Shown here in pieces: positions 22,141-47,598 of a stretch of DNA of 64,000 nt; positions within the stretch are counted from its first letter, which is position 1; each line of letters starts with the position of its first letter. A model generated the notes under the pieces. The model worked only from the letters and a program-made list of their open reading frames with translations. It had not been told where the DNA came from and did not search any database. Both the position numbers and the translations under genes were made by a program. The DNA is from Sulfitobacter sp. OXR-159. Its GTDB lineage: Bacteria; Pseudomonadota; Alphaproteobacteria; Rhodobacterales; Rhodobacteraceae. The stretch lies in the NCBI RefSeq assembly GCF_034377145.1, contig NZ_CP139709.1, positions 62,001 through 126,000 on the forward strand, in the 5' to 3' direction.

Positions 22141-22218
22141 GCCTGCGCTCCTCAATCGCGCGCCGCGGTTGGTTTGCAGGTGCGTTTCTTCGATGGTCCG
22201 CTTCGGTCAACATGACGG

Positions 22219-22293
22219 ATCGAAGTACAGGCCCGGTCCTACCTGGGTCAGGATGACATCATTCGCTACGAGGACGTTTACGCGCGCAAGTAG
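22219..22293 (+). pseudogene. Last codons of a manC gene
   Basis: Reads IEVQARSYLGQDDIIRYEDV YARK and stops at 22291-22293; the intact manC at 42909-44357 ends IEVQTGSYLGEDDIIRYEDV YARGQGAKG. Only about 24 codons survive. It is the third manC trace in the window and lies directly before a strong terminator. Confidence 0.85.
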
Positions 22294-28470: not shown

Positions 28471-28767
28471 TCAGAACCCCGAAAAGACCATGTCGAGGGC
28501 TCCGCGGATTTCATAGTCTGATGCGGAAAGGTCCGCGATGGGAGGACCTTTGAGCAACGCAGAGGGGATCGCCGCCATCTCTGCAGTGTGCAGGGCATAG
28601 GCATCGCCGTTAATTTCGAATACCGGCTCCAGGCGTCCTATAACCCCTGGCCCGCCTGCAATCGGGATCAAAGGTGCGACGACGCGGGAACCTGTGTCGA
28701 TGAAATCCGTCTGAAGGTCGAGCACAAGCCGACCGCCAGATACTTGGTAGACGTGGAACTGCGCCAT
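28471..28767 (-). CDS. ccdB: CcdB-family toxin, copy A
   Basis: 98 aa: FHVYQVSGGRLVLDLQTDFI, DTGSRVVAPLIPIAG, LEPVFEINGDAYALHTAEMA and the end DYEIRGALDMVFSGF, the classic CcdB pattern including the C-terminal 'DxxFSGF' tail. CcdB poisons DNA gyrase. The start overlaps the antitoxin stop (TGATG), so translation is coupled. First member of cassette A. Confidence 0.92.
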   Translation of the reverse strand: MAQFHVYQVSGGRLVLDLQTDFIDTGSRVVAPLIPIAGGPGVIGRLEPVFEINGDAYALHTAEMAAIPSALLKGPPIADLSASDYEIRGALDMVFSGF

Positions 28768-29009
28768 CAGCCGAGTCGCAACACCTGTACGTCCGCCAGC
28801 GGCATCCCATTGGTCTCAATCCAAGCACGCCGCTCTGAAATCGCCGCCGCGTTGTCTGATGCCCAAGCCGCAGCCCGCGCCGCACGCACCGCTTCTCCGA
28901 CAGCAGCATCGCTGATCGCCGAGACATTCAAGCCTAATTCCCGGGCGGCAGAGAGATTTTCTGCCGTAAGGGTAATGTTTGTGCGCTGCTTTTCGGCTGT
29001 GGTCTGCAT
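28767..29009 (-). CDS. ccdA: CcdA-family antitoxin, copy A
   Basis: 80 aa: TNITLTAENLSAARELGLNV (ribbon-helix-helix), then a helical, Ala-rich C-terminal part ending ERRAWIETNGMPLADVQVLR, typical of CcdA. It binds both its own promoter and CcdB. The candidate operator is the TACACA/TGTGTA palindrome just upstream. Confidence 0.92.
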   Translation of the reverse strand: MQTTAEKQRTNITLTAENLSAARELGLNVSAISDAAVGEAVRAARAAAWASDNAAAISERRAWIETNGMPLADVQVLRLG

Positions 29010-29035
29010 ATCGTTCTCCTACGTCGCACATAAAA

Positions 29036-29054
29036 TACACATGACTGGTGTGTA
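29036..29054. promoter_or_regulatory. Candidate ccdAB operator
   Basis: TACACA (29036-29041) and TGTGTA (29049-29054) form a perfect inverted repeat with a 7-bp spacer, 27 bp before the ccdA start, where CcdA-CcdB complexes usually bind. Confidence 0.5.
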
Positions 29055-29301
29055 ATGCAATGGGCCTGGGATCACCTCCCTAGTCGCGCGAATGCCCGGG
29101 CGGGTTGCAGGAGGCGCGTTTTTTACCCATCTCTGAGCCTCGTTGGGCGGATCGACCCGCACGCTCCTGATGTTGCACGTTATCGGGGGTTCGTCCTCAA
29201 TACAATTTGGAAATTTTAATTTTATAAAGTTATATCAGTGACTTAAAGTCGAATTCGGCCCTACAGCAATCTCTGGTTGAATTTGGCTTTGTTTCTGGAA
29301 A

Positions 29302-29883
29302 TCATGTTTGCGCCCTGATCCACGCCTTTAATGCCGTTCGTCGGGCGCTCTCGGCATCCCGCCGGTACCGCTGTAAGGTTTTCAGGGTCTTCCGCATTGC
29401 GGCAGGTCTCGTGGGGCTTGAGCGGGCTAGTACCCGGGCCGCACCTGAATGGAATGCATTCCCTTTAGGATTCTCCGCGAACATGAGCAGTACATCCTCA
29501 TCTTCGTAGTCGAGCTCCTTCCCTTCAAACCGCGTCACGAGTCGCTCCAGCCGAGACATCCCGCCGGCCCCCTGCTCCGCCCGATCATGCATCTCCAGAA
29601 AATAATCGCGTTCGGCTTTGGTGATGCGCTCAAGGCGGGATTCTGCTTCAGCCAACCGGATGGCTGCCTGTTCGAACGGCTCCCCGCCAGAAAAGTTCGG
29701 CTGGGCTGTAACATCGCCCACGATAATACGGTACCAGCGGGTCACCTGGTCCCACGGGGGAGGTGTGGTTAACCCATGACGCCGTGCATTCTGCGAGACC
29801 TTACGCTTCCCCACTGCCGACTTCGGGCCAGAGCTTCGCCGGGCGTTAGCCCGGTTCGCTCTGATCTGACGATCAGTCGCCAT
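29302..29883 (-). CDS. 'ARRHGL' protein of unknown function, copy A
   Basis: 193 aa. The N-terminus ANRANARRSSGPKSAVGKRK then VSQNARRHGLT (about 10-39) is a basic motif found in many uncharacterised proteins of alphaproteobacteria and planctomycetes. The rest is largely helical and charged, ending KTLQRYRRDAESARRTALKA. It has no enzyme signature I know. Its start lies inside the end of the upstream helical-protein gene (11 nt overlap), and the same overlapping pair recurs at 35963-36986. The Arg/Lys-rich helices suggest nucleic-acid binding, but that is a guess. Confidence 0.8.
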   Translation of the reverse strand: MATDRQIRANRANARRSSGPKSAVGKRKVSQNARRHGLTTPPPWDQVTRWYRIIVGDVTAQPNFSGGEPFEQAAIRLAEAESRLERITKAERDYFLEMHDRAEQGAGGMSRLERLVTRFEGKELDYEDEDVLLMFAENPKGNAFHSGAARVLARSSPTRPAAMRKTLKTLQRYRRDAESARRTALKAWIRAQT

Positions 29884-30463
29884 GGCCAGCCACGAATTGT
29901 GCGTCTTCGATCGGCCTGGTGTTGGCGACTTTCAGTCTATCGTAGTCTTCGCGCAGCCGGCGGCGGCGAATTTCGAGATCGGCCAGCTTTGTCTCATGTG
30001 GGACGAGCGCCCTGCCTGCGTTTTCATAAGCGGCTGCGGCAATCTCGCTGACACCGATATTCCGTTCCTCTAACCAAGCCAGAGACGTCGCCGATTGCTC
30101 AGAGAGCGGGTCCAAAAGCCCTTCAGCAAAATCCTTTGCTTCGCTCGAAGCCTCTCCGAACTGGGAAAACGCTCCTAGCAAATCTTTCTCCCATACTTCC
30201 TGCGCGGCCTCCCGAAAATGTTTGCGCAACAATCCTTCGCTTAGGGAACGGTGCCGGTGGATCTCCCATTCCAAGGCGATCAGATTTTCGGCAAGAGACA
30301 TTTGATAAGGAGAGGACGGATTGAGTTCAGACAGGAGCGCCTGCCGCAGATCCTCAAAAGCAGCTGCATTCTCGCCAGGAAGAATTGGAAGGCGCGGGAT
30401 CTGGTCGAGCAGTTCTTGCTGTGCGTCGAGGGGCGCAGGCAGCGCCGAAATATCATTAGACAT
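29873..30463 (-). CDS. Helical 'RRR' partner protein, copy A
   Basis: 196 aa from 30463 (MSNDISALPAPLDAQQ) with GGAG 7 nt upstream. It is mostly amphipathic helix, with strong coiled-coil character in the last 50 residues (HETKLADLEIRRRRLREDYD). A basic-acidic segment, LIALEWEIHRHRSL, lies near the middle. I do not recognise a named family. The protein at 36465-36986 has the same plan and shares ALE-E--HR, AY, HE--LE-RRR-L--D and L-V spacings, so they are paralogues. Confidence 0.75.
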   Translation of the reverse strand: MSNDISALPAPLDAQQELLDQIPRLPILPGENAAAFEDLRQALLSELNPSSPYQMSLAENLIALEWEIHRHRSLSEGLLRKHFREAAQEVWEKDLLGAFSQFGEASSEAKDFAEGLLDPLSEQSATSLAWLEERNIGVSEIAAAAYENAGRALVPHETKLADLEIRRRRLREDYDRLKVANTRPIEDAQFVAGHGD

Positions 30464-30594
30464 GTCGCATCTCCGACTGGTCACTGATACGCGACACTAC
30501 TACATGTTCAAGAAAATCTCAAACCCGCTACTCGATGTTGTAAAGTCTAGCGAACCATCGGCTTCCATACCCGAGGACAATCAGGGCGGAAATC

Positions 30595-30963
30595 CTAGGT
30601 GTTGGCGTCTCGGCGCATGAAGATCTTGCGCAAAACAAAGCCCATGGCCGCACCAACACCCACCCCAAGAACGTCTGAGAGAAAATCAGCGAACTCACCG
30701 TGCCGCCCGACATAGGGCTGTATAATCTCAATCAGCGCCCCATAGAGTATGGCCGCAAGAACCACTCGAAAAAGGGCTTTGGGGTAGCAAGCCGTACTCG
30801 GCAGAACCAATGCCGCGAAAGCCAAGATATGATGCGCCTTGTCGGTTCCAGGAACATCTGTGGGTACGTGTAGGGGGACCAGCGTCAGCGTGGCAATGCT
30901 CAGTGCCAAGCCGATTGTTAGCCAGATCGAAATCGTCCGCCGGCGCTTCCAATTGGAGGCCAT
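30595..30963 (-). CDS. VanZ-like membrane protein, copy A
   Basis: 122 aa from 30963 (MASNWKRRRTISIWLTIG). Four hydrophobic segments, with the VanZ family hallmarks DKAHHILAFAALVLP (about 42-56) and IEIIQPYVGRHGEFADFLSD (about 79-98). VanZ proteins are small membrane proteins; one confers low-level teicoplanin resistance, and the family often accompanies exopolysaccharide loci in roseobacters. It lies 27 bp after the HTH gene on the same strand. A diverged copy is at 40979-41377. Confidence 0.88.
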   Translation of the reverse strand: MASNWKRRRTISIWLTIGLALSIATLTLVPLHVPTDVPGTDKAHHILAFAALVLPSTACYPKALFRVVLAAILYGALIEIIQPYVGRHGEFADFLSDVLGVGVGAAMGFVLRKIFMRRDANT

Positions 30964-30990
30964 TGCGTGAGAAGGAAACATGGCGATCGC

Positions 30991-31233
30991 CTATCGTTTC
31001 GGGGTGCGTATGCGGATGCCCGGGCCATCCTCAGGCGTGCCGATAAATTCGATGCCAGCGGCTTCAAGGGAAGATTTGACCTTGGAAACCGTCTTTAGGG
31101 TGCTTTCAGGAACAGCATCGATCGCCTCAATTCGCCGAACTGTCTTTCCAGCAATACCTGCTGAGTTCGCGAGATCTTCCACCGACCACCGCAGTGCGCT
31201 TCTAGCCGCGCGAATTTGCAAACCAGTTATCAT
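30991..31233 (-). CDS. Small HTH (XRE-type) regulator, copy A
   Basis: 80 aa: GLQIRAARSALRWSVEDLAN, SAGIAGKTVRRIEAIDAVPE, then AAGIEFIGTPEDGPGIRIRT. A lambda-repressor-like HTH followed by the short 'AAGIEFIG' tail typical of this small family. It is divergent from the recombinase at 31269, and a TGTCCA palindrome sits between them, so it likely represses the recombinase and itself. Copy B is at 37309-37557. Confidence 0.9.
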   Translation of the reverse strand: MITGLQIRAARSALRWSVEDLANSAGIAGKTVRRIEAIDAVPESTLKTVSKVKSSLEAAGIEFIGTPEDGPGIRIRTPKR

Positions 31234-31248
31234 TGACTGCGCACAAAA

Positions 31249-31265
31249 TGTCCACTATATGGACA
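31249..31265. promoter_or_regulatory. Operator-like palindrome, cassette A
   Basis: TGTCCA (31249-31254) and TGGACA (31260-31265) around CTATA. A further TGTCC half-site covers the recombinase start codon (31270-31274). It is placed between the divergent HTH and recombinase genes. Confidence 0.6.
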
Positions 31266-31268
31266 ATC

Positions 31269-31565
31269 ATGTCCAAAATTATTCATACAGATATTATCCC
31301 CGATTGGTGCGCAGAGCTCAAGCGCCTCGAAGGGGCGTATGCGCCTTGTACCATGCGCGCCTACTATTCAGATATCGAGACATATATCCTATGGTGTTCG
31401 CAATACCATCGGGCTGCCTTTCCTGGCAGCGTTGATACGGTCTGCGCGTTTCTGATCGAACAAGGGTCGGACCTTGCCCCCTCAACTGTACGCCGTCGCA
31501 TCTACGCCATCCGGAAGGTCCACCAGCTGCTGCGTCTACCCGACCCAACCCATGACGTGGAGACG
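31269..31565 (+). pseudogene. Tyrosine recombinase, N-terminal domain only
   Basis: From 31269 (MSKIIHTDIIPDWCAELKRL) it reads about 98 residues collinear with the intact recombinase of cassette B: EGAYAPCTMRAYYSDIETYI, LAPSTVRRRIYAIRKVHQLL, PDPTHD. Homology then ends and the DNA becomes the 3' flank and 3' end of a manC copy in opposite orientation. The whole catalytic domain (R, K, HxxR, Y) is missing. The frame stays open to 32153, but only through antisense manC. Confidence 0.88.
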
Positions 31566-31577
31566 GCAATAGGATGT

Positions 31578-32501
31578 CTATCCCTTCGCCCCCTGCCTCC
31601 GTGCATAGACATCTTCGTAGCGAATAATATCATCCTCGCCCAGATGGCTGCCGGTCTGCACTTCAATCAGCACCATCGGCACCTTACCAGGGTTCTTCAT
31701 CCGGTGCGGGGCGCCGAGGGAGATATAGACCGATTGGTTCTCGGTCACGAGTTCTACTTCGTCACCAACGGTTACCCGAGCTGTTCCCTCCACTACGATC
31801 CAGCATTCGGATCGGTGGTGATGGCTTTGCAGGCTGAGCGCCGCACCCGGGTGGACCACGATTCGTTTAACCTGAAAGCGCGAGCCGACTACGAGGCTTT
31901 CGAACCAACCCCAGGGTCGGTAATCGCGCGGCAGGGTTTCGGCTTGCGCAGCACCCTTGGCTTTGAGCGCGGCAACGGCTTTTTTCACGTCTTGCGCACG
32001 GTCTTTATGGGCCACCAGAACCGCATCAGGCATGGCGACCGCAATGATGTCACTCAGACCGATACCGACCAGCTGTTGCTGCGGCTCTTCAGCACGCAGC
32101 AGGGTGTTCTCGCAGTCAATCGCCGTGGCGGAATCGGATCAGGGATCACGTGATCGGACGGTGCCACGAGAATCAGCGCTTCAGGCGCGCGGGCGGCAAG
32201 ACTCAAAGCTGCCGCAAGGATCGCCGGGGCGGTGTTGCGCCCTTCCGGCTCAATAAGAATGCTTGCAGGCGCGATCTCGACCGCCGCCAATTGCTCGGTC
32301 ACGAGAAAACGGAAAATTAGACCCCGTCAGGATCACCGGAGCAGCGAAACCCTTACCGGACAACCGCTGGGCCGAAGCTTGAAACAGGCTTTCTTCGCCA
32401 ATCCGTTTCGCAAATTGCTTGGGATCGCTCTTGCGCGATAGCGGCCAAAGCCGTTTGCCGGAACCACCAGCCAAGAGGATCGGGTGAACAATATGGGCCA
32501 T
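31578..32501 (-). pseudogene. Decayed manC (GDP-mannose pyrophosphorylase/isomerase)
   Basis: Compared with the intact manC at 42909-44357, this copy keeps the start (MAHIVHPILLAGGSGKRLWP), has a frameshift near 32313, continues to SDHVIPDP, and then lacks about 530 bp (junction about 32143-32148). It resumes in another frame at the residues before ENTLLR and finishes with the cupin domain, VHPGAALSLQSHHHRSECWI and DDIIRYEDVYARRQGAKG. Identity to the intact copy over shared parts is high (about nine bases in ten by eye). It cannot make the full enzyme; a cupin-only product from 32033 is conceivable. Confidence 0.9.
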
Positions 32502-32525
32502 TGAAAATATCCTGTCGGGAAAAGG

Positions 32526-32837
32526 TCAGTGGCGGATGGCATCCTGATCGTGGGTAAACCAGTCATAGGTTTCCTGCAGCCCCTTTTCGAGGTCAATTGA
32601 GGCACGCCATCCCATATTCGCCAGACGATTTATGTCCATCGGCTTGCGGAGGGTGCCGTCTGGCTTGCTGGGATCATTGGTAATGCGCCCCTTAAAGCCG
32701 GTGACCCAAGCGACCATCTGCGCCAGTTCCATGATTGACACATCGACCCCGGTGCCGACGTTGATATGGCTGAGCATAGGCTGGGTGTTCGTGTCATAGG
32801 TCTCGCGGTCGAGATCGCGCACGAACGGGCTGGCCAC
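32526..32837 (-). pseudogene. C-terminal stub of GDP-L-fucose synthase
   Basis: About 103 codons: LDRETYDTNTQPMLSHINVG, TGVDVSIMELAQMVAWVTGF, DPSKPDGTLRKPMDINRLAN, MGWRASIDLEKGL. This is the end of GDP-fucose synthase (WcaG/Fcl). The Rossmann domain with the cofactor site and catalytic Ser-Tyr-Lys is missing. It lies 24 bp before the broken manC on the same strand, so a GDP-mannose/GDP-fucose pair once stood here. Confidence 0.85.
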
Positions 32838-33302
32838 AGCCCTATCGTTAGGTAAACAGCTAAGCCGCTGCTTGGTCTCAGATCAGGGCCGCTTGAGAGG
32901 AGGCGTTATCAGGCGTTTGGCCCGCGCCACAGACATTTGCCGGGCTTAGCCTACGAGCACTATGAATTGGATGATTTCGTCATGGTCCTGATGCTGCACG
33001 GAAACGGAGCTTCGGCGCGCCGCCTTTCTCGCCCTTGCAGAAAGTGAGGGTTCTAGGGGAATTGGAGTAGCGCAACTTCAAGGTGAGCCGGGGGCCGTTT
33101 CGGGAACGGTGTTAAGGTCTGGCAATTAATGTGGAGAAGCGCCAGAGCGGCTAAAGTTGCTGTTACGCTCCTGATACGGCCAAACCGTCCCCTGGGGCAT
33201 TCACCGCCCCCGCGCGCAAACCGCAAGCTCTAATAGCAACCGAGCAACAGCCCCAAATCCGAAACCTTTCAAGATATCTACCATGCGGGGTTCGGCTGCT
33301 GC
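32838..33302. other. Intergenic, no gene recognised
   Basis: About 465 bp separate the fucose-synthase stub from the second toxin-antitoxin pair. I see no coding frame with recognisable content and no clear terminator. This is the boundary between cassette A debris and cassette B. Confidence 0.4.
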
Positions 33303-33602
33303 CTAGAGTCCCCAAAGAATAGCGTAAAGGCCATCCATAACGCGGTGCCCCTCCTCCGCAGAGAGCTGATGCACCGGGTCAAGGTGCCGTAATCGATTTG
33401 CCTGTACTGTGAGAGGCATGTGGGTACGGACACGAAAGGGACTGCCGGCAATTGTCACATCCACGGTAAATTTCGTCAGAGCCGGAAGCGCGTCACGGGG
33501 CAAGACCGGCACCAGAACGACCGTATTCAGCTCCAATAGATGGTCTGCTTGAACAACGAGGTAAAGATCGCCAGCGATCTCGAAAACGTCAAACTTCTGC
33601 AT
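33303..33602 (-). CDS. CcdB-like toxin, copy B
   Basis: 99 aa: KFDVFEIAGDLYLVVQADHL, LNTVVLVPVLP, VDVTIAGSPFRVRTHMPLTV, ending VMDGLYAILWGL. The layout matches CcdB (N-terminal beta-strands, central 'VVxPLxP', final hydrophobic helix), but the tail differs from the FSGF/I end of true CcdB, so gyrase poisoning is uncertain. It overlaps the antitoxin gene by 14 nt. Equivalent position to the pair in cassette A. Confidence 0.82.
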   Translation of the reverse strand: MQKFDVFEIAGDLYLVVQADHLLELNTVVLVPVLPRDALPALTKFTVDVTIAGSPFRVRTHMPLTVQANRLRHLDPVHQLSAEEGHRVMDGLYAILWGL

Positions 33603-33852
33603 TAGGCCATGGGTGGTTCAAAGCCAGATGAGAGCCCGGGACCCCGTTATTTGTGACCAGGTCTGCTTCCGCAGCGATCGCGGATTCATTTTCGCGAAAC
33701 CAAGCAGCAGCACGTTCTTGTGGACTTCCCGCTGCCATATCTGCGGCGACAAGGGCTTTGATGTAATCGGTCGTGCTTACACCTTTGACCTTTGCCCAAG
33801 CCTTCAGCTGGGACTTCTCATCGGGGTCCAGTCTTATGGTCAGGTTACTCAT
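33589..33852 (-). CDS. Ribbon-helix-helix antitoxin, copy B
   Basis: 87 aa from 33852 (MSNLTIRLDPDEKSQLKAWA) with GGAG 5-6 nt upstream. N-terminal RHH DNA-binding strand and helices (about 1-40), then AAWFRENESAIAAEADLV, which resembles the toxin-wrapping part of CcdA. Its partner is the overlapping downstream toxin. Confidence 0.85.
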   Translation of the reverse strand: MSNLTIRLDPDEKSQLKAWAKVKGVSTTDYIKALVAADMAAGSPQERAAAWFRENESAIAAEADLVTNNGVPGSHLALNHPWPNAEV

Positions 33853-33870
33853 GCAATCTCCAGTCTTACT

Positions 33871-33904
33871 GCGCACTAACAATATAGCGCCTCTGTAAGT
33901 GCGC
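33871..33904. promoter_or_regulatory. Candidate operator of toxin-antitoxin pair B
   Basis: GCGCACT (33871-33877) and AGTGCGC (33898-33904) form inverted 7-bp arms about 20 bp apart, 18-52 bp before the antitoxin start. Weak evidence. Confidence 0.35.
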
Positions 33905-34084
33905 CGCAAGTTACGAGTGTGGTAGCCACGACACGCCTCACCACAGTTTTCAGATGCAGCGCTCATGATGACGCGGCATGTTTCTACTTCAAGGCGAGCA
34001 TTTCCCCGTTTCGGGAAACTCGAGCAACTCAATCTGTCGGTAGACCCCTCTGAGAAGGGAGAGGTCTGTCTGTTGGCAGCATCT

Positions 34085-35377
34085 CTAATCCTTCGATTGC
34101 GAAGAAGGGCCATCCGCAAACGCCGCTGACTGGCCAGCATTAAGCTCTTCTTGATCTGCTCCAAGCGCCGCCGTCTCTGGTGTGGACGCGCGTACGAGGG
34201 GTTTTGCCTGAAAGGCCACCTTGTCCTTTGAGGCCACAGCTGGCGCAATCCTAAGCCGCAAAAGCGCGAACAGGATCAAGGACAAATGGACAGTTCCCGT
34301 TACCGCAAAGAGCGTAGAGGCACCAAATCTGGTCATCGCAACACCGGCCACGGTGGGTCCGACAATCGAACCAATCCCAAATACGAGCAACAGCCCCCCG
34401 CTGACCTGAATAAAGGACCCAGGTTCAGCGTGGTCGTTCGCATGTGCCACAATGATAGGATACATGGCATAGACCGTTGCTCCGAACAGGGCGGACATTA
34501 CCAGCGCCAGAGCGGGCTGCGGCACCCCGACGGACAAGAACAATCCGTCCGCCAGAATGGCAAAGACTGTCACGGCGATCAGAACTTTACGGCGATCATA
34601 GCGATCTGAGGCGATGCCGACGGGGATCTGAGATGCAGCGCCAGCCAGAATCGGGATACTCGCAAACAGGGCGATTTCGTTTAGAGACAATCCGATGCGC
34701 GCCCCATAAACCGCGGCCAAAGTGCCGAAAGAAGCATTGGAGACGCCGACCATCAATACAGCAAAGACGGCAATGGGGGAGTTCTTCCAAAGCCGGCCTA
34801 ACGCAAGCTTGGCTTGAGTCAAAGGCCGAGGCGTCGTGGTGGCGCTTATTGCGGTCGGCAACAGGGCCAAACAATAAACCATTGCCGCGAGCACGAAGAA
34901 AAAATAGCCGTTGGTATCCCCCAGTGTGAGCACCATCTGCCCGGCAGTCGTAGCCGAGAGGTTGACCATTGTATAGAGTCCGAAAACCCGCCCGCGCGAC
35001 TTCGCGTCAGCGCGCTCGTTCAACCAACTTTCCACGATCATGGCCGCACCGGCGAAACAAAAGCCGGACAAGGCACGCACCGGGATCCAGACCCATGGCG
35101 TGATAAGGACGAGCGAGAGCAGAACGGCGATAGCTGCGATTGCGCACATGGCGCCAAACGCTCGAATATGTCCTACACGGGCCACCAGTGCAGGCGTGCG
35201 CAAACATCCCATCACATAGCCGACGGCCCATCCGGTTCCCAGCAAACCCAGCGAGGCAGCCGTAAATCCTTCGGCCTCGCCTCGGATTGGTAAGATCAAA
35301 CTGTTTACCCCCCCAGCAAACAGAAGAAATGATGACCCCATTAAAAGGGCCGTCAACGGAAGCAAATGTCTCATCAT
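34085..35377 (-). CDS. MFS transporter (YcaD-like)
   Basis: 430 aa with 12 predicted membrane helices. Loop motifs GWAVGYVMGCLRTPALVARVG (helix 2 to loop 2-3) and GIASDRYDRRKVLIAV (loop 8-9), plus AAMIVESWLNERADAKSRGR, which is characteristic of the YcaD/UMF-type MFS branch with no known substrate. The C-terminal tail of about 45 residues is hydrophilic. It sits between the toxin-antitoxin pair and the two-gene unit of cassette B and has no counterpart in cassette A. Confidence 0.88.
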   Translation of the reverse strand: MMRHLLPLTALLMGSSFLLFAGGVNSLILPIRGEAEGFTAASLGLLGTGWAVGYVMGCLRTPALVARVGHIRAFGAMCAIAAIAVLLSLVLITPWVWIPVRALSGFCFAGAAMIVESWLNERADAKSRGRVFGLYTMVNLSATTAGQMVLTLGDTNGYFFFVLAAMVYCLALLPTAISATTTPRPLTQAKLALGRLWKNSPIAVFAVLMVGVSNASFGTLAAVYGARIGLSLNEIALFASIPILAGAASQIPVGIASDRYDRRKVLIAVTVFAILADGLFLSVGVPQPALALVMSALFGATVYAMYPIIVAHANDHAEPGSFIQVSGGLLLVFGIGSIVGPTVAGVAMTRFGASTLFAVTGTVHLSLILFALLRLRIAPAVASKDKVAFQAKPLVRASTPETAALGADQEELNAGQSAAFADGPSSQSKD

Positions 35378-35962
35378 GAGGGCATGGATATCGTTCAGCT
35401 GTCGCGTTTAACATCCCCAAAAAACAGGTTCTGACGCAGCAGCTACGCTGCGGGCCGCACCCGCCACGGCTTGAAGGCCGAAGACCTTTTCCGAGAGTCG
35501 TCGAACGTCAGGCTTGATCAGCGATTCCAGGCACGAAGCTGTCGCGTTAAAGAGATCAGGAGAAAACGCGATCATGCTTGCGCTGTCGCTCAGCCTTAAA
35601 AAAGCCCACCAAGCTGCAAGCTGCCTCTTGGTTTTCCAAACCCGTCACAGCCCAATTCAAACCCATGAGCTGTTTCTCAAAGAGCAGGCACGCGGGCGTG
35701 GGAGACCAGCGCGCGCGAACATCTCGTAGGGAGAGGCTTGTACATTATCGGCGACTTTACCGAAATCGCCCCTTCCCTCGCAGGAGGACCAAGCGCCAGA
35801 TACCAAGACTGATACCGCGCGGCCTCGGGGCGCAGGCTCTCCGCGCCCCGAGACTAAATCGTTCTCAATTGTCAAATAGCGCGCCATAACGAAAGCAGAT
35901 GCTGCTTTGTTACGGCAGGTCGGGGACCCGGTTGCGCCCCTCTAACCAGCAAACCTCCCGAC
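35378..35962. other. Intergenic, no gene recognised
   Basis: 585 bp with short frames on both strands, none with a ribosome site or recognisable content. A minus-strand frame at 35657-35887 (MARYLTIENDLVSGRGEPAP) is open but looks like chance. Confidence 0.4.
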
Positions 35963-36472
35963 TCAATCAGGCGGGTAAGGATCGTCTTTCACCAGCGCCT
36001 TGGTAAAAGCGGCCTGCGCTTTCTTTCTTCTAGTCTCAGCCTCGCGACGATAGCGCTTTAGCAGGTCTGCCTTTTTCCAATAGGCTTTCCAATATGCTGC
36101 CTCCTGTGCGGCTGCGACCGCAGCCGCGACATCCGTCGTTTGCGAGAAAACGATCTCCCGCAATGTCGGGACGTCCAGCACCACCTTTCGGAAATCGTCG
36201 TTTGTAACGGCGTCTGCTCTCGCGCTGCCGAAAAGATGCTCGCGCTCAGCGGCGCTGGTGCGCTTGACCTGGGCCTCGGCCTCCGCGAACTCCCATGCCA
36301 AACGGGTCACTTTAGGGTTCGCGTAGCTTGCCGCACATTGTTCGGGATTGTTGAGGATCTCGCGGTAGATTGTCAGCGTTTGCTGGGTTGGCACGGGCGC
36401 TGTTAACCCGTGCCGTCGGGCATTTTGGGATGGGTCAGCGCGCGCCGCTTCGGTTTGGTCGCGCTTATCCAT
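35963..36472 (-). CDS. 'ARRHGL' protein of unknown function, copy B
   Basis: 169 aa from 36472 (MDKRDQTEAARADPSQNARR). It has the same SQNARRHGLT motif (about 15-24) and the same ending (LLKRYRREAETRRKKAQAAF) as copy A, but the N-terminal basic segment is shorter and the middle differs. The start overlaps the end of the preceding gene by 8 nt, as in copy A (11 nt). Preservation of the overlap and both motifs in diverged copies argues for a functional two-protein unit. Confidence 0.8.
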   Translation of the reverse strand: MDKRDQTEAARADPSQNARRHGLTAPVPTQQTLTIYREILNNPEQCAASYANPKVTRLAWEFAEAEAQVKRTSAAEREHLFGSARADAVTNDDFRKVVLDVPTLREIVFSQTTDVAAAVAAAQEAAYWKAYWKKADLLKRYRREAETRRKKAQAAFTKALVKDDPYPPD

Positions 36473-36986
36473 TGGACCGCATCCGTGGGGCGATAACCCG
36501 GAGAGCTTCGAAATCGTCCAAAAGCTCGCGGCGGCGCTTTTCCAAGCCTGCGATGCACTTTTCATGATGGCTCAAGTCCTCCGCGAGAGTTTGATAGGCA
36601 CGCGCGTAGAGCTCATCCAGCGTCGTTCCTGCAGCTTCTAGCTTTTCCGCCGCTTTCATCTGGCGCGTTGGATCCTCACCCACGAGGTCTCGGGCGAGTT
36701 TCAAATACCGTTCTTCAGCATAGGGCCGGACCACGAACTGCCCTGTGGAAAAATAGCCCGCCGCCATATCGCGGACTAATGCCATAAGGCGCGTATCGCG
36801 CATGCGGCGGTGCTGCTTGAGCTCCATTTCCAGGATAGCAACCTCACTGGCACGACGGCGCTCCAACGCGCTGCGGGCCTGAAGAACGTCGTGGAATTCG
36901 CTTTCGATCTCTTCAAGGTACGCTCTGCTCCCCCCAAGCGCGACGGGTTGGCGTTTCTGGTGTACAGATGTGGGCTTTTTAGTCAT
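36465..36986 (-). CDS. Helical 'RRR' partner protein, copy B
   Basis: 173 aa from 36986 (MTKKPTSVHQKRQPVALGG) with GAAGGA 8-9 nt upstream. Almost wholly helical: ALERRRASEVAILEMELKQH in the first third, then LVGEDPTRQMKAAEKLEAAG, and a coiled C-terminal part HHEKCIAGLEKRRRELLDDF. Paralogue of 29873-30463. No named family recognised. Confidence 0.75.
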   Translation of the reverse strand: MTKKPTSVHQKRQPVALGGSRAYLEEIESEFHDVLQARSALERRRASEVAILEMELKQHRRMRDTRLMALVRDMAAGYFSTGQFVVRPYAEERYLKLARDLVGEDPTRQMKAAEKLEAAGTTLDELYARAYQTLAEDLSHHEKCIAGLEKRRRELLDDFEALRVIAPRMRSNG

Positions 36987-37308
36987 CTCTGGGTTCCTTC
37001 CGGCGGGTTGGGTTTTCTTGAAAGTGGCCTTTGCCGAGGGGCAAAAGACCAAACCAACACGCCAGGCGGCGCACGCGTAGGTGCTATGCAGACAAAAATT
37101 GTCGTTGGGGAACCGGAAATGCGCATTGGTGCGTCCCTGCAATGAGCGGAGGCACTGGCATCTTGCACATCACCTCCGCTGAGCGGAAATCGGACCTAGC
37201 ACATCATGCGCACGGTATGTGCTTCAAACACTAGATATAGACGCAGCCGTCCGCAACCCTTTTTGCGGACAACTCAGAAATCTGACCCTGAACTCATTCA
37301 GGGTAAGT
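36987..37308. other. Intergenic upstream of the two-gene unit B
   Basis: 322 bp, presumably with the promoter of the two-gene unit. No gene recognised. In cassette A the VanZ gene stands here; in cassette B it is found 4 kb further on. Confidence 0.4.
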
Positions 37309-37557
37309 TCAGGAATTTAAAGGATGGAACCGTAAGCCGGGCGCGTCATCGGGGGCGCCGATAAATTCGATCCCGGCAGCCTCGAAACAAGTACGTAGTA
37401 TCTCAAGATTGTTTTTGCGGGACTTCGGCACGCCGGCCTCCGCCAACTCATAGCGCACAATCGTCGCGGTACCGACACCCGTAGCATCGGCGAGATCTTT
37501 AACCGACCAATTCAGCGCCGCCCGCGCTGTCCGTATTTGCTGACCTGTAATTGACAT
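37309..37557 (-). CDS. Small HTH (XRE-type) regulator, copy B
   Basis: 82 aa: TGQQIRTARAALNWSVKDLA, DATGVGTATIVRYELAEAGV, then AAGIEFIGAPDDAPGLRF. Same family and layout as copy A, sharing the LxWSVxDLA and AAGIEFIG blocks. It faces away from the recombinase at 37616, with a strong palindrome in the 58-bp gap. Confidence 0.9.
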   Translation of the reverse strand: MSITGQQIRTARAALNWSVKDLADATGVGTATIVRYELAEAGVPKSRKNNLEILRTCFEAAGIEFIGAPDDAPGLRFHPLNS

Positions 37558-37564
37558 AGCGATA

Positions 37565-37589
37565 GTTATGATATATTTTTTATCATAAC
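37565..37589. promoter_or_regulatory. Operator-like palindrome, cassette B
   Basis: GTTATGATA (37565-37573) and TATCATAAC (37581-37589) are perfect 9-bp arms around a T-rich 7-bp spacer. It is located between the HTH regulator and the recombinase, in the same place as, but unrelated in sequence to, the TGTCCA site of cassette A. Confidence 0.7.
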
Positions 37590-37615
37590 CAAGCGAATCT
37601 TATGGGAGATCGGGT

Positions 37616-38521
37616 ATGGTGGGGTCGGGTATGGTGGAGTGGAGCAAAGCATTAGAAACTCTCGATGGGGCGTATTCTGATGCAACGATGCGCGCATATC
37701 ATTGTGATGTGCAAGCCTATGTCACCTGGTGTGCCGAAGAGCGGATTGATCCCTTTCCTGCAAGCGTTGGGCAGGTCTGCGCGTTCTTGGAAGCCGAAGG
37801 CCAGCACCGGGCACCGTCAACGGTAAGGCGTCGCCTATATGCGATCCGCAAGATTCATCGGCTGTTGGGGCTTGCAGATCCGACGCATGACGAAGCAATC
37901 AATCTCGCTTACCGGCGCGTTCGACGCGCAAAACCGGTGCGTCCGCAGCAGGCGCGCGGATTGACAGCATCGCACCTAAAACGTTTTCTCGCCGTTCAAC
38001 CCAAAACCCCTTGGGGACTGCGCAACACGGCCATGCTGTCTCTAGGTTATGAACTGATGACCCGCAGATCAGAACTGGTCGCATTGCGCGACGAGGATAT
38101 TACGCTGCGGGCCGATGGTACCCTGCGGGTGCTGATCCGCCGCAGCAAAGCAGACCAAGAAGGTCAAGGCCGTGTTGCATTTACGTCTATCGACACGGCG
38201 CAGCGCGTATTGGATTGGCAGGCCTGGCGCGGCCCGAGCATTGAGTGGCTTTTCTGCCCGATTTATCAAGAACGCCCGGTAGACCGCAGTCTCAGCGATA
38301 CCACCGTCAAGACGGTGGTTAAGACCGCCGCAAAGCAAGCCGGCTACCCCGCTGAAGACGTCCGCGCGTTCAGCGGCCACTCAATGCGGGTCGGTGCCGC
38401 GCAAGATCTCTTGCGCAAAGGCTTCGATACCGCAGCCATTATGCGGGCCGGTGGCTGGAAGTCCGTAAATGTTCTCGCCCGCTACTTGGAATATGCTGAG
38501 CAAAATGTTTGGGAGGCATGA
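37616..38521 (+). CDS. Tyrosine recombinase (phage-integrase family), intact
   Basis: 301 aa; GGAG 7 nt before ATG 37616, and a second in-frame ATG at 37631 follows a short tandem repeat. N-terminal core-binding domain about 1-105 (ATMRAYHCDVQAYVTWCAEE, PSTVRRRLYAIRKIHRLLGL). The catalytic domain has R150 (LMTRRSELVALR), K178 (RRSKADQEG), H255 and R258 (SGHSMRVGA), W281 and Y290 (GGWKSVNVLARYLEY). All residues needed for strand cleavage and joining are present. Likely role: integration, excision or inversion of the surrounding cassette. Regulated by the divergent HTH protein through the palindrome at 37565-37589. Confidence 0.92.
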   Translation: MVGSGMVEWSKALETLDGAYSDATMRAYHCDVQAYVTWCAEERIDPFPASVGQVCAFLEAEGQHRAPSTVRRRLYAIRKIHRLLGLADPTHDEAINLAYRRVRRAKPVRPQQARGLTASHLKRFLAVQPKTPWGLRNTAMLSLGYELMTRRSELVALRDEDITLRADGTLRVLIRRSKADQEGQGRVAFTSIDTAQRVLDWQAWRGPSIEWLFCPIYQERPVDRSLSDTTVKTVVKTAAKQAGYPAEDVRAFSGHSMRVGAAQDLLRKGFDTAAIMRAGGWKSVNVLARYLEYAEQNVWEA

Positions 38522-38562
38522 CCCTCTTTTGACCATGCCCTGGATATCGGGAGCGGCCACTC

Positions 38563-39147
38563 TTATGGTTTCCGAAGCGCCATCCGATCCGCGTTCTTTT
38601 GCGCCGCCTGCGCTGCTGCCAAAAGTTTCTTATCCTCGTTGCGCTTAATGCGAGGACCGAGCATCCCGAGATGGCGCATCAAGAGTTCAAGAAACCGAAG
38701 CCTATCACTTATCTTGATTTGAAACTCGAACGTCGCACTGTGGCCCGGTTTCGATTGAACCTTCACTGAATGGACGAGGCCCTTCCGCCATATGACCGGC
38801 CAGTCGGCAACAGGTCTAGGGCGTTCATTTGGATCGAAAATATCAGCAAGATTCGCCTCAAGCATGTCCCGAATCCATTCCAAAGCTGCCTCCCGCATTT
38901 CCTCAGCGCGGCAATGTAGCTCTTCGTTGCGGGCCTTGAGAGCCGCTTGGATATTCCGCTGGTTCAGCAGCTTCATGGCGAGCGCTTTTTTATTCCGCCC
39001 AGAAAAGCCCGCAATGCGAAGCGCTTTCACTGGGTCAAAGTCCTGGCGGTAGGCTTCAACGAAAATCGCTTGTTGGGGTGTCAACCGATGCCGCATCGCC
39101 CAAAGCGCTACGTCAGGTATGACAAGGTCACTTGCCTGCATGCTCAT
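38563..39147 (-). CDS. Phage terminase small subunit-like protein
   Basis: 194 aa; start 39147 with GGAGGG about 9 nt upstream. Residues about 20-75 (LTPQQAIFVEAYRQDFDPVK, ALRIAGFSGRNKKALAMKLL, NQRNIQAALKARNEE) match the HTH-containing Terminase_2 small-subunit pattern that recognises phage packaging sites. The C-terminal half holds a beta segment (FEFQIKISDRLRFLELLMRH). No large terminase, portal or capsid gene is nearby, so it is an orphan. It faces the recombinase gene end to end. Confidence 0.78.
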   Translation of the reverse strand: MSMQASDLVIPDVALWAMRHRLTPQQAIFVEAYRQDFDPVKALRIAGFSGRNKKALAMKLLNQRNIQAALKARNEELHCRAEEMREAALEWIRDMLEANLADIFDPNERPRPVADWPVIWRKGLVHSVKVQSKPGHSATFEFQIKISDRLRFLELLMRHLGMLGPRIKRNEDKKLLAAAQAAQKNADRMALRKP

Positions 39148-39326
39148 GTCGAAGACCCTCCGATCGCGAGACCATCGGGCATTTTATCAAATCGCTGTGC
39201 ATTCCGGCAAAGGGTCATCGCAGATTTACCGGTACAGTTCGAGATGACACCGCGGTCCACTGATGTATGGGAGAGGACGTCCGCTGCCGATATTGTATTG
39301 GGCGGCAAACCGTAAGTTTTGATCAT
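39144..39326 (-). CDS. Possible 60-aa protein coupled to the terminase-like gene
   Basis: MIKTYGLPPNTISAADVLSH ... FDKMPDGLAIGGSST, with a stop that overlaps the terminase-like start as ATGA. The coupling argues for a real gene, but the start lacks a good ribosome site and I recognise nothing in it. Confidence 0.4.
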   Translation of the reverse strand: MIKTYGLPPNTISAADVLSHTSVDRGVISNCTGKSAMTLCRNAQRFDKMPDGLAIGGSST

Positions 39327-39637
39327 TATGGCGCTCCACAGAATAGGGCACCCCGTTGATGTGTCGGCGCCCAGTTTACAGGCGACCGAAGCACATCATG
39401 CGCTCGCGATCTGCCCGCACACTACATTACGTGTTAGCAGCAGGCAAGAGACGGCTAATCCTAGATTGGGGCAAACCCTACAGATAGTCCGAACGATCGA
39501 ATGCCAAGAGCCCGGCGTGGTTCAGTGATTGTCGTTCCGGCGCAACCAACGACGCTGATCATACTGAGCTATATCGACAGCCAGCCAAATCCTCGATGTA
39601 TCGGGCCCATCGAACCTTCGTTATGCAGTCTCTACAG
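39327..39637. other. Intergenic left of the IS5 element
   Basis: About 310 bp with no coding frame I can support. It probably carried the promoter of the terminase-like operon. The IS5 target site is at its right end. Confidence 0.4.
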
Positions 39638-39641
39638 TAAA

Positions 39642-40931
39642 GGGCACCTCTAAAAATTGCCCCAACCCCGGTGCTGCGTTATCTTTGATGGGACGAACCG
39701 GCACAAGGGAGACGGCAATGACGCAGATGGGTTTCTTTGATCTTTCCGACCGCTATGCGAGCCTTGACGCGAAGAAGGACCCATTGGTTGAGATCGATGC
39801 GGTCGTGCCGTGGGAGGAGTTTCGTTCTATTTTGGATGAGGTTTGGCGCAAGCCTGATGCGGAGCGCAAGTCGCGCGCAGGCCGCAAGCCGATGGACACT
39901 GTGCTGATGTTCAAGACGCTGGTGCTGAGCGCACTCTACAACCTGTCGGACGATCAGATCGAATATCAGGTCCGTGACCGGCTGTCCTTTATGAGGTTTC
40001 TGGGACTTAGCCTTGCGGACCAGGTGCCGGATGCAAAGACGGTGTGGCTGTATCGCGATGCGCTGGCGCAGGCGGGCAAGGTGGAAGAGCTGTTTCGTCA
40101 ATTTGACGGGTATTTGGCGCGGCAGGGGTATATCGCTCGGGGTGGGCAAATTCTTGATGCCTCTATTGTGGCGGTGCCGCGCAATCACAACACGCGCGAC
40201 GAGAACGCGTCAATCAAGAAGGGCGAGAACCCCGAGCATTGGGAAAACAAGCCCGCCAAGCGCAGCCAGAAGGACGTGGACGCGCGCTGGACGAAAAAGC
40301 ACGGCAAGAGCCATTACGGCTACAAGAACCATGTGAACGTCGACCGAAAGCACAAGCTGGTCCGGCGCTATCACGTCAGCGATGCCGCGCTGCATGACAG
40401 TCAAGCGGTGGATCACCTGCTGATGCGAGGCAATACCGGCTCCGGTGTGTGGGCGGATGCGGCCTATCGGTCCGAGGAGACGGAGGCGAAATTGCGCGCG
40501 CGGAAGCTGAAAAGTCACATCCACCGTAAGGGGAAACGCGGCAAACCTCTCACAGATCAGGCCAAGGGCAGCAATCGGACCAAATCCACCGTTCGGGTCC
40601 GGGTGGAACATGTATTCGGCGCACAGACCAACGACATGGGTGGCACCCTTGTGCGTAGCATTGGTCTGGTGCGAGCCAAGGCTAGGATCGGGATGAAGAA
40701 CCTCGCATATAACATGCGACGCCTCGTTCAACTGCGCCGCATCAACCCGTGTCCGGCGTGAATACCGGGCGATCCAAGAACCGATCACGCGTCAAAGCAT
40801 GACAAACAAGGCTTGAAGGCCGCAATACAGCGGTTGCGAGGCTCTGCCAATTGCCAGACGAAAGCCACGATCCTGCTTCAGGCCGCCCGCGCCGCCAAAC
40901 TACCAAAAATTGTTCAATAATCGAGGTGCCC
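39642..40931 (+). mobile_element. IS5-family element with 4-bp target duplication
   Basis: Ends are GGGCACCTC (39642-39650) and its complement (40923-40931), with partial matches further in. Both are flanked by TAAA (39638-39641 and 40932-40935), a 4-bp direct repeat as expected for IS5. The total of 1290 bp with an intact transposase suggests recent insertion. Confidence 0.9.
39718..40761 (+). CDS. IS5-family transposase
   Basis: 347 aa from 39718 (MTQMGFFDLSDRYASLDAKK). DUF772-type N-terminal domain (RKPMDTVLMFKTLVLSALYN) and a DDE domain with D in GGQILDASIV, D in GVWADAAYRSEE and E in RVRVEHVFGAQ. Intact and of normal length. An ATG at 39685 would add 11 residues, but GGGAGACGGCA before 39718 is the better start. 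Confidence 0.92.
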   Translation: MTQMGFFDLSDRYASLDAKKDPLVEIDAVVPWEEFRSILDEVWRKPDAERKSRAGRKPMDTVLMFKTLVLSALYNLSDDQIEYQVRDRLSFMRFLGLSLADQVPDAKTVWLYRDALAQAGKVEELFRQFDGYLARQGYIARGGQILDASIVAVPRNHNTRDENASIKKGENPEHWENKPAKRSQKDVDARWTKKHGKSHYGYKNHVNVDRKHKLVRRYHVSDAALHDSQAVDHLLMRGNTGSGVWADAAYRSEETEAKLRARKLKSHIHRKGKRGKPLTDQAKGSNRTKSTVRVRVEHVFGAQTNDMGGTLVRSIGLVRAKARIGMKNLAYNMRRLVQLRRINPCPA

Positions 40932-40978
40932 TAAAGAAAATTAATTGAGGCCGAGAGGTTGCTCTTGGGGGCTCAAGA

Positions 40979-41377
40979 TCAATCCCGCTGGCGACGCAGC
41001 ATGAACGAACATCCGCTTCCCCAATGCAGCAAAAGACCAATAATTGCTCCGATCGCAATCCCAAGGAGGTCCGCCAGGAAGTCAGCTATCTCCCCTGACC
41101 GGCCAACGAAGGGCTGGATGACCTCGATGAGACCTGCATAGAACGCCGCAGCGAGCACGACACGAAGAAGTGCTTTCGGGTAGAAGGCTGCAGAAGGCAA
41201 TGTCAAAGCCATAAAGGCCAAGACGTGATGCACTTTGTCACCCCCTGGCACGTCTGGCGCGGCATTCGATGGGATCAGGGTCACTACGGCAATGCAGGCT
41301 GAAAGGCCAAACGTCAGCCAAATCGCGACCAACCGGCGGCGCTTAGGGTCGAGCGGAGCCGTTTGAAAATCAACCAT
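40979..41377 (-). CDS. VanZ-like membrane protein, copy B
   Basis: 132 aa: PKRRRLVAIWLTFGLSACIA (first helix), GGDKVHHVLAFMALTLPSAA, LIEVIQPFVGRSGEIADFLA, DLLGIAIGAIIGLLLHW. Same signatures and order as copy A at 30595-30963, with a shared RRR-xxIWLTxGL start, but clearly diverged. Here it is separated from the HTH and recombinase by the terminase-like gene and IS5, and stands next to ugd, suggesting it can also belong to the polysaccharide locus. Confidence 0.88.
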   Translation of the reverse strand: MVDFQTAPLDPKRRRLVAIWLTFGLSACIAVVTLIPSNAAPDVPGGDKVHHVLAFMALTLPSAAFYPKALLRVVLAAAFYAGLIEVIQPFVGRSGEIADFLADLLGIAIGAIIGLLLHWGSGCSFMLRRQRD

Positions 41378-41647: not shown

Positions 41648-42823
41648 TCAGTCAGCCCCGAATAGATCGCGGGTAAAGACTTTTTCCGAAACGTCATCAA
41701 GATCGCGCGTTCGACGGTTCGCTAAGATGACATCGCACTCTTCTTTAAAACGGACGAGGTTGCGCGTCACTTTCGAGCCAAAGAATTCCTCTTCGGCCAT
41801 CTCAGGCTCATAGACTACAACTTCGATCCCCTTGGCCTTGATCCGCTTCATCACGCCCTGGATCGAGCTCTGTCGGAAATTATCCGATCCAGCCTTCATC
41901 ACCAGCCGATAGACGCCGACGCGGCTGGGGCGTCGGGCGAGGATCTGGTCGGCGATAAAATCCTTGCGGGTGCGGTTGGCGTCGACGATGGCGCGGATCA
42001 TGTTCTGCGGCACTTCGGAGTAATTCGCCAAGAGCTGCTTGCTGTCTTTCGGCAGGCAATACCCGCCGTAGCCGAAAGAGGGGTTGTTGTAATGCGCGCC
42101 GATCCGTGGATCGAGGCTGACCCCTTCGATAATCTGCCGGCTGTCCATGCCGTGGCTCATCGCATAGCTGTCGAGTTCGTTGAAATAGGCCACGCGCATG
42201 GCGAGGTACGTATTCGCAAAGAGTTTGATCGCCTCAGCCTCAGAGGCATTCGTGTAGAGAACCGGTATGTCTTTGCGCAGCGCGCCTTCGGCCAAGAGCT
42301 GGGCAAAGGTCTCAGCCCGGGCCGAGCGCTCCCCGACGATGATCCGCGACGGGTGTAGGTTGTCGTGCAGCGCCCTGCCCTCGCGCAGGAATTCAGGGCT
42401 AAAGATGATCCGATCGCCGCCGATCTGCGCCGAAATTTGAGCGGTATAGCCAACGGGGACCGTAGACTTAATTACAATCGTCGCGTGATCGTTGACGTCA
42501 ATAACAGCGCGGATCACCGCCTCGACGCTAGACGTGTCGAAATAATTTTCGACTGGGTCATAATTGGTCGGCGTGGCCACCACCACGAAATCCGCCCCCG
42601 CATAGGCTTTGGCCGCATCGGTGGTCGCAGTCAGCCGAAGCGCTTTATCGCGCAGGAAACCTTCGAGCTCGGCATCGACGATGGGACATTGCCCCGCATT
42701 TACCTGCGCGACCCGTTCTGGGTCTACATCTACCGCCGCAACCTGATTATTTTGCGCCAGAAGGACCGCGTTGGACAGCCCGACATATCCGATGCCTGCG
42801 ACAGCGATCTTAGTATCTGACAT
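41648..42823 (-). CDS. ugd: UDP-glucose 6-dehydrogenase, short type
   Basis: 391 aa. Oxidises UDP-glucose to UDP-glucuronate with NAD. N-terminal Rossmann motif [15 protein letters not shown] (about 10-24), [13 protein letters not shown], and the catalytic Cys in [16 protein letters not shown] (near residue 258). Length and [15 protein letters not shown] match the 388-aa gamma-proteobacterial type. A second, longer Ugd is encoded at 62558-63862, so uronic acid supply is doubled. It lies 85 bp downstream of manC on the same strand. Confidence 0.92.
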
Positions 42824-42908
42824 GGGTATTCCCTACTTGGAGCCGGAAACACTTCGGCTCACTTTAGTTTATCTTTGGACGTCATTCCGAAAGGCGGCAT
42901 TGGGATAT

Positions 42909-44357: not shown

Positions 44358-44477
44358 CTAAATCTCCTTTAGGAGACGGTCAGCGGTGAATGGAAGTAGC
44401 TGTCTGATCTTATACGACAATGGCAGCTCCTACACGGCAAAAAAACCGCGTCTTTGATCGCCAGCTCGGTCTGAAGT

Positions 44478-47593: not shown

Positions 47594-47598
47594 ATTTT

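Follow-up and report, generated by a model that had tools for sequence, protein, structure and literature searches.

The question raised by a 64,000-nucleotide (nt) stretch of Sulfitobacter sp. OXR-159 DNA (positions 62001-126000 of the 191,538-base contig C3, NZ_CP139709.1, in a genome of 4.42 Mb and 8 contigs; hereafter, the window) is what unites two related gene blocks, copies A and B, that it contains. Both blocks carry on the minus strand a CcdB-family toxin gene, a gene with an NARRHGL motif (ARR) that overlaps a second one (RRR) and the gene of a small XRE regulator, from which a tyrosine recombinase gene diverges on the plus strand across a gap that holds an inverted repeat in both copies. 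A sequence-only reading had described this arrangement correctly and took it for a single mobile cassette, fitting a small integrating element or phage satellite; what it overlooked is the main pattern, namely that the unit is tied to polysaccharide loci and that the enzyme is Cre-like. In our best reading, each copy would be an 'XRE plus Cre-type recombinase' unit placed at the joint between polysaccharide modules, intact in copy B and decayed in copy A.

The recombinase belongs to the Cre family

Among solved structures, the intact recombinase of copy B is best matched by Cre (E 5.4e-23 over residues 19-293, which span both domains; XerD, 9.2e-8), and among phage proteins by P1 Cre (27.7% identity over 91%), with D6 Dre also matched. 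The catalytic set of Cre is R-K-H-R-W-Y, and the residues that align with it, R150, K178, H255, R258, W281 and Y290, are invariant in 20 aligned members. A tree of 104 sequences has a branch with support 100/99 that parts 88 homologues of this type from Cre, Dre and other distant relatives, 16 in all, several of these distant rows being long-branched and flagged by a warning of the tree program. Alignment and tree place the copy B enzyme among the Cre-type tyrosine recombinases, in a clade of its own apart from P1 Cre, D6 Dre and the sampled distant relatives. The likeness to P1 Cre/loxP and D6 Dre/rox is one of recombinase family (27-28% identity over 91%, catalytic residues aligned); unlike them, the enzyme belongs to a separate clade, has a divergent XRE partner, lies in polysaccharide loci and has yielded no lox-like site. 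Cre-like recombinases 33-38% identical to it are found on plasmids of Methylobacterium, Methylorubrum, Roseomonas, Roseivivax and Acetobacter, in several cases with toxin-antitoxin genes nearby, but the six such plasmid loci examined are without polysaccharide genes around them.

Association with polysaccharide loci

When 84,980 species genomes were scanned, 254 relatives were found, of which the best 80 were kept; these yielded 78 loci (numbered here with the prefix L). The hosts are chiefly Rhodobacterales and Sphingomonadales; the few odd ones, an Anaerolineae and a beta-proteobacterial metagenome-assembled genome, may be binning errors. Relatives occur in 15 of 295 genomes of the family (E <= 1e-50) and in 8 of 385 of the class (E <= 1e-35, own genome counted). 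At least two core polysaccharide genes are present in 41 of the 53 loci of at least 15 kb, in 51 of 79 overall (a set that takes in short loci and one viral contig) and in 10 of the 15 family-scan loci. The same holds for only 1/20 control stretches of the same replicons and 0/20 stretches that surround other tyrosine recombinases in the same genomes, the latter hand-picked and 20 kb long except for one of 10.7 kb.

Because the labels of the core genes were derived from annotated plasmid loci that are partly of the same kind, the comparison was repeated with Pfam. The two open reading frames (ORFs) next downstream of the recombinase (106 ORFs, 53 loci) include Epimerase (18), GDP_Man_Dehyd (17), RmlD (13) and Polysacc_synt_2 (7), none of which is in the top 25 families of 80 control ORFs. 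The first downstream polysaccharide gene is convergent with the recombinase in 45 of the 54 loci that have one, and the last upstream polysaccharide gene lies on the minus strand in 26/30. Some members are located on contigs 1.0 to 4.3 Mb long, and one such contig is by itself a whole genome, so that the unit is not only a plasmid trait. The association with polysaccharide loci is strong and specific, on plasmids and on megabase contigs alike.

Polysaccharide neighbours were also seen in 2 of 12 loci of distant Cre-like relatives (L167 and L170, in other families of the class, with recombinases at 40% and 31% identity). In the tree, the 88-member clade has L167 as its sister, and the polysaccharide-locus habit may therefore be older than the clade.

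The joint at the recombinase stop codon

The position at which related loci cease to be alike was determined for pairs whose DNA is at least 75% alike through the recombinase end and for at least 500 nt upstream. In 17 of 21 pairs (15 locus clusters), homology breaks off no more than 40 nt from the recombinase stop codon, compared with 40 of 178 for other ORFs of the same loci (Fisher p 2e-7, the pairs not being independent). In the 17 pairs, identity over the first 60 nt after the stop is 2-48%, which is the level of unrelated DNA (36% in unrelated pairs), whereas over the 60 nt that precede the stop 13 pairs are 73-98% identical and four 58-70%. Left out were L017/L095, in which the contig ends, and L114/L119 and L064/L067, in which homology runs downstream instead. 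L114 is a mosaic, its XRE side resembling L118 over 7.6 kb and its polysaccharide side L119 over another 7.6 kb. In the pair L063/L065, the two loci become alike again 88 and 1585 nt past the stop, and one of them alone carries a stretch of about 1.5 kb that includes a NusG-like gene.

The XRE partner, its palindrome and its alleles

A divergent XRE gene lies less than 300 bp from the recombinase in 63 of 79 loci, and XRE was detected by blastp in 83/92 units, which supports recombinase plus XRE as a conserved unit. The gap between them contains a palindrome whose sequence varies among loci. XRE proteins of the helix class 'AT..RYE' are accompanied by a TGAT-N-ATCA palindrome in 22/26 cases, the other classes in 8/47 (Fisher p 2.7e-8 for 22/4/8/39; 73 of 91 XRE matches have a good palindrome, and p is too small, since the sequences are related and the classes were defined only once the data had been inspected). 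This pairing is consistent with XRE binding to the palindrome and with repression from it.

The XRE alleles were compared in 21 pairs, namely 19 of those used for the joint (two with L077 being omitted) plus L064/L067 and L114/L119, XRE being present on both sides in 19. In 13 of these 19, XRE is 42-71% identical while the recombinase is 80-94% identical, and in the remaining six XRE is 89-93% identical; one of the six is without a recombinase value, and the pairs inside L016/L080/L083 and inside window/L003/L004 are not independent. An XRE far more diverged than its flanks suggests allele swapping, as an immunity system would show. L016, L080 and L083 have homologous upstream genes, recombinases 92-94% identical, three diverged XRE alleles and differing downstream polysaccharide genes. 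Two units share one locus in L006, L067 and L116; the two in L067 and the two in L116 are not sisters in the tree, and likewise A and B are not nearest kin. On the RRR side of the copy B XRE gene, the stretch 37150-37310 has, as single-stranded DNA, a much more stable fold than its shuffled versions (z -4.6), with two strong hairpins.

The two copies and their replicon

C3 is most likely a plasmid, because the DNA of C3:137329-142637 shows 84% identity to a plasmid of S. faviae across its annotated genes for a replication initiator, an AAA ATPase and a ParB-domain protein. Its gene content appears to be that of a Roseobacter polysaccharide ('biofilm') plasmid, which it resembles in large plasmid size, in rfb/rml and manC genes and in the replication-initiator/ParAB-like module; this module and polysaccharide genes (rfb in the window) are found on one replicon. 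Two stretches of the window match the S. faviae rfb (dTDP-rhamnose) genes, 20899-22220 at 87% and 44839-48137 at about 70% DNA identity. The portions available of an account of Roseobacter polysaccharide plasmids (PMC10090131) mention no recombinase unit at polysaccharide genes, nor do those of a study that counts plasmid tyrosine recombinases in general (PMC13386836), and, judged by title and abstract beginning, none of the papers found in an open-licence library deals with Cre-type recombinases in polysaccharide loci of these bacteria.

The features of both copies are collected in Table 1. Copy A reads CcdB, CcdA, ARR, RRR, VanZ and XRE (all minus), truncated recombinase, then decayed manC and fcl pieces. 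Copy B reads toxin, antitoxin-like gene, MFS transporter, ARR, RRR, XRE, intact recombinase (plus), terminase-small-subunit-like gene, IS5, VanZ, nucleotide-sugar dehydrogenase and intact manC; the MFS and terminase-like genes had been noted as its additions.

Table 1. Features of copies A and B and their flanks (window positions; strand "." where none applies).
Feature	Position	Strand	Evidence or remark
CcdB-family toxin, copy A (flank, not core)	28471..28767	-	PF01845 E 2e-19
CcdA antitoxin, copy A (flank, not core)	28767..29009	-	PF07362 E 6.5e-18
ARR gene, copy A, GPKS..GK..SQNARRHGL motif, overlaps RRR	29302..29883	-	37 homologues at E <= 1e-3
RRR gene, copy A	29873..30484	-	homologous to RRR of copy B
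VanZ-like membrane protein, copy A	30595..30981	-	PF04892 E 4.8e-7; VanZ-XRE-recombinase order likewise in L041, L047
XRE regulator, copy A	30991..31233	-	weak helix-turn-helix (HTH) matches under cut-off; XRE of L018 90% identical
Operator-like palindrome TGTCC-N7-GGACA, XRE/recombinase gap, copy A	31249..31265	.	sequence; L018 palindrome similar
Cre-type recombinase remnant, copy A, N-terminal ~93 residues, catalytic domain gone	31281..31562	+	reading frame continues into manC fragment
manC remnant, downstream of recombinase A	31578..32506	-	MannoseP_isomer and NTP_transferase pieces; 84-92% DNA identity to pieces of 42892-44362
fcl (GDP-fucose synthase) remnant	32526..32837	-	32163-32846 84% identical to L006 11627-12301, overlapping annotated GDP-L-fucose synthase
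CcdB-family toxin, B side (flank)	33303..33602	-	PF01845 E 4.6e-8
Antitoxin-like gene, B side, start approximate	33589..33855	-	DUF6290/NikA-like N-part, weak CcdA-like tail, all under curated cut-offs
MFS transporter (passenger)	34085..35377	-	PF07690 E 4.7e-27; L006 78% DNA identity
GC-rich hairpin, left edge of DNA block common to L003 and L004	35821..35855	.	
ARR gene, copy B	35963..36565	-	two Sulfitobacter plasmids carry versions 79% and 78% identical
RRR gene, copy B, start trimmed to homologue length	36465..36986	-	
Common upstream motif, GCGCATGATGTGCT on minus strand, about 200 nt before RRR	37198..37223	-	
XRE regulator, copy B	37309..37557	-	HTH_31 E 4e-6
Operator-like palindrome GTTATGATA-N7-TATCATAAC, copy B	37565..37589	.	
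Intact Cre-type tyrosine recombinase, copy B	37616..38521	+	Cre E 5.4e-23
Terminase_2-like (terminase small subunit, TerS-like) gene, rare in relatives	38563..39147	-	PF03592 E 3e-13
Second copy of common motif, about 240 nt before terminase-like gene	39390..39414	-	
IS5-type transposase (insertion)	39685..40761	+	PF01609, PF05598
VanZ-like gene, B side, displaced from XRE	40979..41377	-	PF04892 E 6.6e-10
Nucleotide-sugar dehydrogenase, convergent with recombinase	41648..42823	-	79.5% DNA identity to L007 11328-12488, annotated nucleotide sugar dehydrogenase
Intact manC (mannose-1-phosphate guanylyltransferase)	42909..44357	-	69.7% DNA identity to annotated manC of L004

Proteins of A and B are 55% identical for the recombinase N-terminus (47/85), 52% for XRE (38/73), 62% for VanZ (66/106), 33% for ARR (47/144) and 28% for RRR (44/155). 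When the 104 recombinases are compared, that of copy A is nearest to L018 (75%) and L007 (72%) and that of copy B to L003 (92%) and L004 (91%), with 55% between A and B. Since each is nearer to other loci than A is to B, the copies look like separate arrivals and not like a duplication, in agreement with the sequence-only reading, which had excluded a recent tandem duplication. Its pairing of the other genes stands in part. The tyrosine recombinase named for both copies is intact in B and a remnant in A, where only about 93 residues match. The VanZ genes are homologous but differently placed, between XRE and RRR in A and beyond the recombinase, the terminase-like gene and IS5 in B. The CcdAB-like pairs do include CcdB-family toxins, but these are poor counterparts, as their alignment score of 47 is exceeded by the best of 200 shuffles (49), and the B-side antitoxin is better matched by DUF6290 and NikA-like models than by CcdA, all below curated cut-offs. 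The CcdBA DNA of copy A has 84-89% identity with that adjoining units of another type in L004, L006 and L007, which points to mosaic assembly. The decayed manC behind copy A (31561-32506) matches pieces of the intact one behind copy B (42892-44362) and has an internal deletion.

Exchangeable neighbours and a common upstream motif

The genes next to the unit vary from locus to locus. Among the 79 loci, ARR/RRR accompanies it in 22 and a pair with an HGGxSTG motif in 15, the two never together; VanZ is found in 15 (upstream of the unit), CcdAB in 4 and the terminase-like gene in 3 (E <= 1e-8), and of 11 annotated plasmid loci 6 have CcdAB in the vicinity. By these counts, ARR/RRR, HGGxSTG, VanZ and CcdAB would be exchangeable neighbours, CcdAB and the terminase-like gene not belonging to the core. 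A single cassette with the content first proposed does not agree with this pattern: the recombinase and XRE are linked and ARR/RRR is one of two alternative neighbours, but the toxin pair and the terminase-like gene are local. ARR/RRR has no usable family match in Pfam, PADLOC or NCBIfam, and a literature search for the word HGGxSTG found no paper. In one alignment, ARR and HGGxSTG proteins have an invariant NA..HG core in common. Small HGGxSTG proteins replace ARR at L006 6135-6401, L007 6855-7088 and L018 6901-7161.

Three plasmids (window, L003 and L004) with differing flanks have about 3.6 kb in common (35824 to 39412 or 39563), a block that insertion sequences interrupt in L003. In the window, both RRR and the terminase-like gene are preceded, at a distance of about 200-240 nt, by a 14-nt motif that reads GCGCATGATGTGCT in gene sense; it precedes both genes in L003, L004 and L005 too, with a single-base difference at 1 of 8 places. 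A search of the whole 4.4 Mb genome for a longer form of the pattern gave no exact copies other than the two in the window. The motif is possibly a shared operator. The 25-nt repeat at 37198 and 39390 was considered as a pair of attachment (att) sites at the edges of an element and rejected: only the non-palindromic 14-nt core is kept across the four plasmids, and this core sits upstream of RRR and the terminase-like gene and turns over with the latter in L005. The direct repeats looked for at element edges were not found, the 14-nt repeat following gene upstream regions instead.

Possible functions of the unit

In the favoured reading, the XRE regulator would bind the palindrome and repress both itself and the recombinase. 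Upon derepression, the recombinase alone, as Cre does, would recombine sites at or near its own 3' end, and polysaccharide modules would thereby join, leave or be replaced at that end. XRE alleles would diverge because units with a common repressor would silence each other. That the recombinase takes part in polysaccharide module exchange at the joint, under XRE control, has in our judgment about even chances. Several observations weigh against it. A lox-like site consists of two ~13-nt arms and a ~8-nt spacer, and a search near 22 recombinases (13-nt arms, 6-9-nt spacer) revealed nothing shared; a comparison of two whole replicons gave no convincing candidate, although imperfect or distant sites would be missed. 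Palindromes common to the two replicons fell in shared genes or in a parS-like repeat by partition genes, or were of unclear origin, and neither common short sequences downstream of 94 units nor repeats in the three two-unit loci point to a common site. Codon entropy indicates no DNA constraint at the recombinase 3' end (0.86 in the last window, mean 0.84). Broken recombinases exist in copy A, in genome G062 (with an inner TGA) and in L020 (in two pieces). Among the long loci, 12 of 53 have fewer than two core polysaccharide genes, as have 5 of the 15 from the family scan. The joint itself is not free of exceptions, homology ending 120 nt past the stop in L087/L091 and 889-1037 nt past it in the three pairs of window, L003 and L004. 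As unrelated clade members are 65% alike in the last 60 nt of the gene, the four pairs at 58-70% could have their break slightly inside it. Where homology is lost within 600 nt, loss within 40 nt is also seen in 40 of 71 cases at other ORFs, against 17 of 18 at the recombinase (p 0.002), so that part of the effect is general.

The lack of a lox-like site, the unconstrained 3' end, the broken copies and the sharp breaks at other gene ends, together with insertion sequences near many loci, speak for a passive anchor, in which a conserved but decaying recombinase gene marks the joint while homologous recombination and insertion sequences reshuffle the region. We regard this as possible but rather doubtful, as breaks cluster at the recombinase beyond their frequency at other ORFs, 13 of the 17 pairs hold at least 73% identity up to the drop, the catalytic residues are invariant and the unit stays with polysaccharide loci across two orders. 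The enzyme could also be a multimer resolvase that only happens to lie in a polysaccharide region, just as P1 Cre at loxP keeps its large plasmid monomeric. Related recombinases on plasmids of other alphaproteobacteria (in a collection of plasmids only) and the plasmid-like replication block of C3 agree with such a role, which is nevertheless unlikely: members occur on megabase contigs, three loci have two units, and the neighbours are polysaccharide and not replication genes, with about 45 kb of the circular S. faviae plasmid lying between its unit and the replication initiator.

Phage-inducible chromosomal islands, a kind of satellite, carry a recombinase, a small repressor and TerS, a combination that the window and a few relatives resemble; the block common to three plasmids with different flanks, and the 14-nt motif that flanks XRE, recombinase and terminase-like gene in direct orientation in window, L003 and L004, would likewise suit the original proposal of an integrating element, or phage satellite, that is autonomous and brings its own maintenance module. 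Unlike in those islands, however, att edges were not found, replication or capsid-interference genes were not recognised, and the terminase-like gene, like CcdAB, is confined to a handful of loci. The motif moves with the genes behind it and not with an element edge, being inverted together with the terminase-like gene in L005. ARR has no match in 50,697 phage records or in a viral-contig scan; of four viral contigs with a recombinase relative, three are at 28-29% and the fourth, at 65%, has the same recombinase as the bacterial contig L086. A phage satellite is not supported by these comparisons and seems to us quite improbable. Least credible of all is a phase-variation switch that inverts or excises a local segment and so turns polysaccharide genes on or off: recombinases beside surface-polysaccharide genes do perform phase variation in Bacteroides, but no conserved inverted repeats were found near the units (22 recombinases; three loci), and a convergent position at operon ends is unlike that of a promoter switch. 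The staphylococcal cassette chromosome (SCC)-type capsule cassettes, which use large serine recombinases and a defined att site, have in common with the favoured reading the idea of a recombinase that travels with a surface-polysaccharide module; unlike them, the window unit has a Cre-type tyrosine recombinase, and no site was found.

Implications of a proposed polysaccharide module exchange

Surface polysaccharides help to determine whether marine bacteria attach, to which phages they are susceptible and how they are perceived by hosts, yet the reshuffling of polysaccharide gene clusters is poorly known outside a few pathogens. Extended beyond the window, the exchange reading leads to a tentative proposal, which we think somewhat doubtful: alphaproteobacterial polysaccharide modules may be portable cassettes, each capped by its own Cre-type recombinase, and the immunity group of each cap, as in temperate phages, would be set by an XRE repressor/operator allele private to it. 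Differently marked caps could then coexist in tandem, with modules entering, leaving or being replaced at the recombinase 3' end, as a dedicated exchange system for cell-surface polysaccharides. If true, this would provide a concrete and testable mechanism for modular exchange, based on a locus-tied Cre-type recombinase and swappable repressor alleles. Moreover, relatives of Cre are sought as genome-engineering tools, and the clade of 88 sequences would represent a new source of such recombinases once their sites are found.

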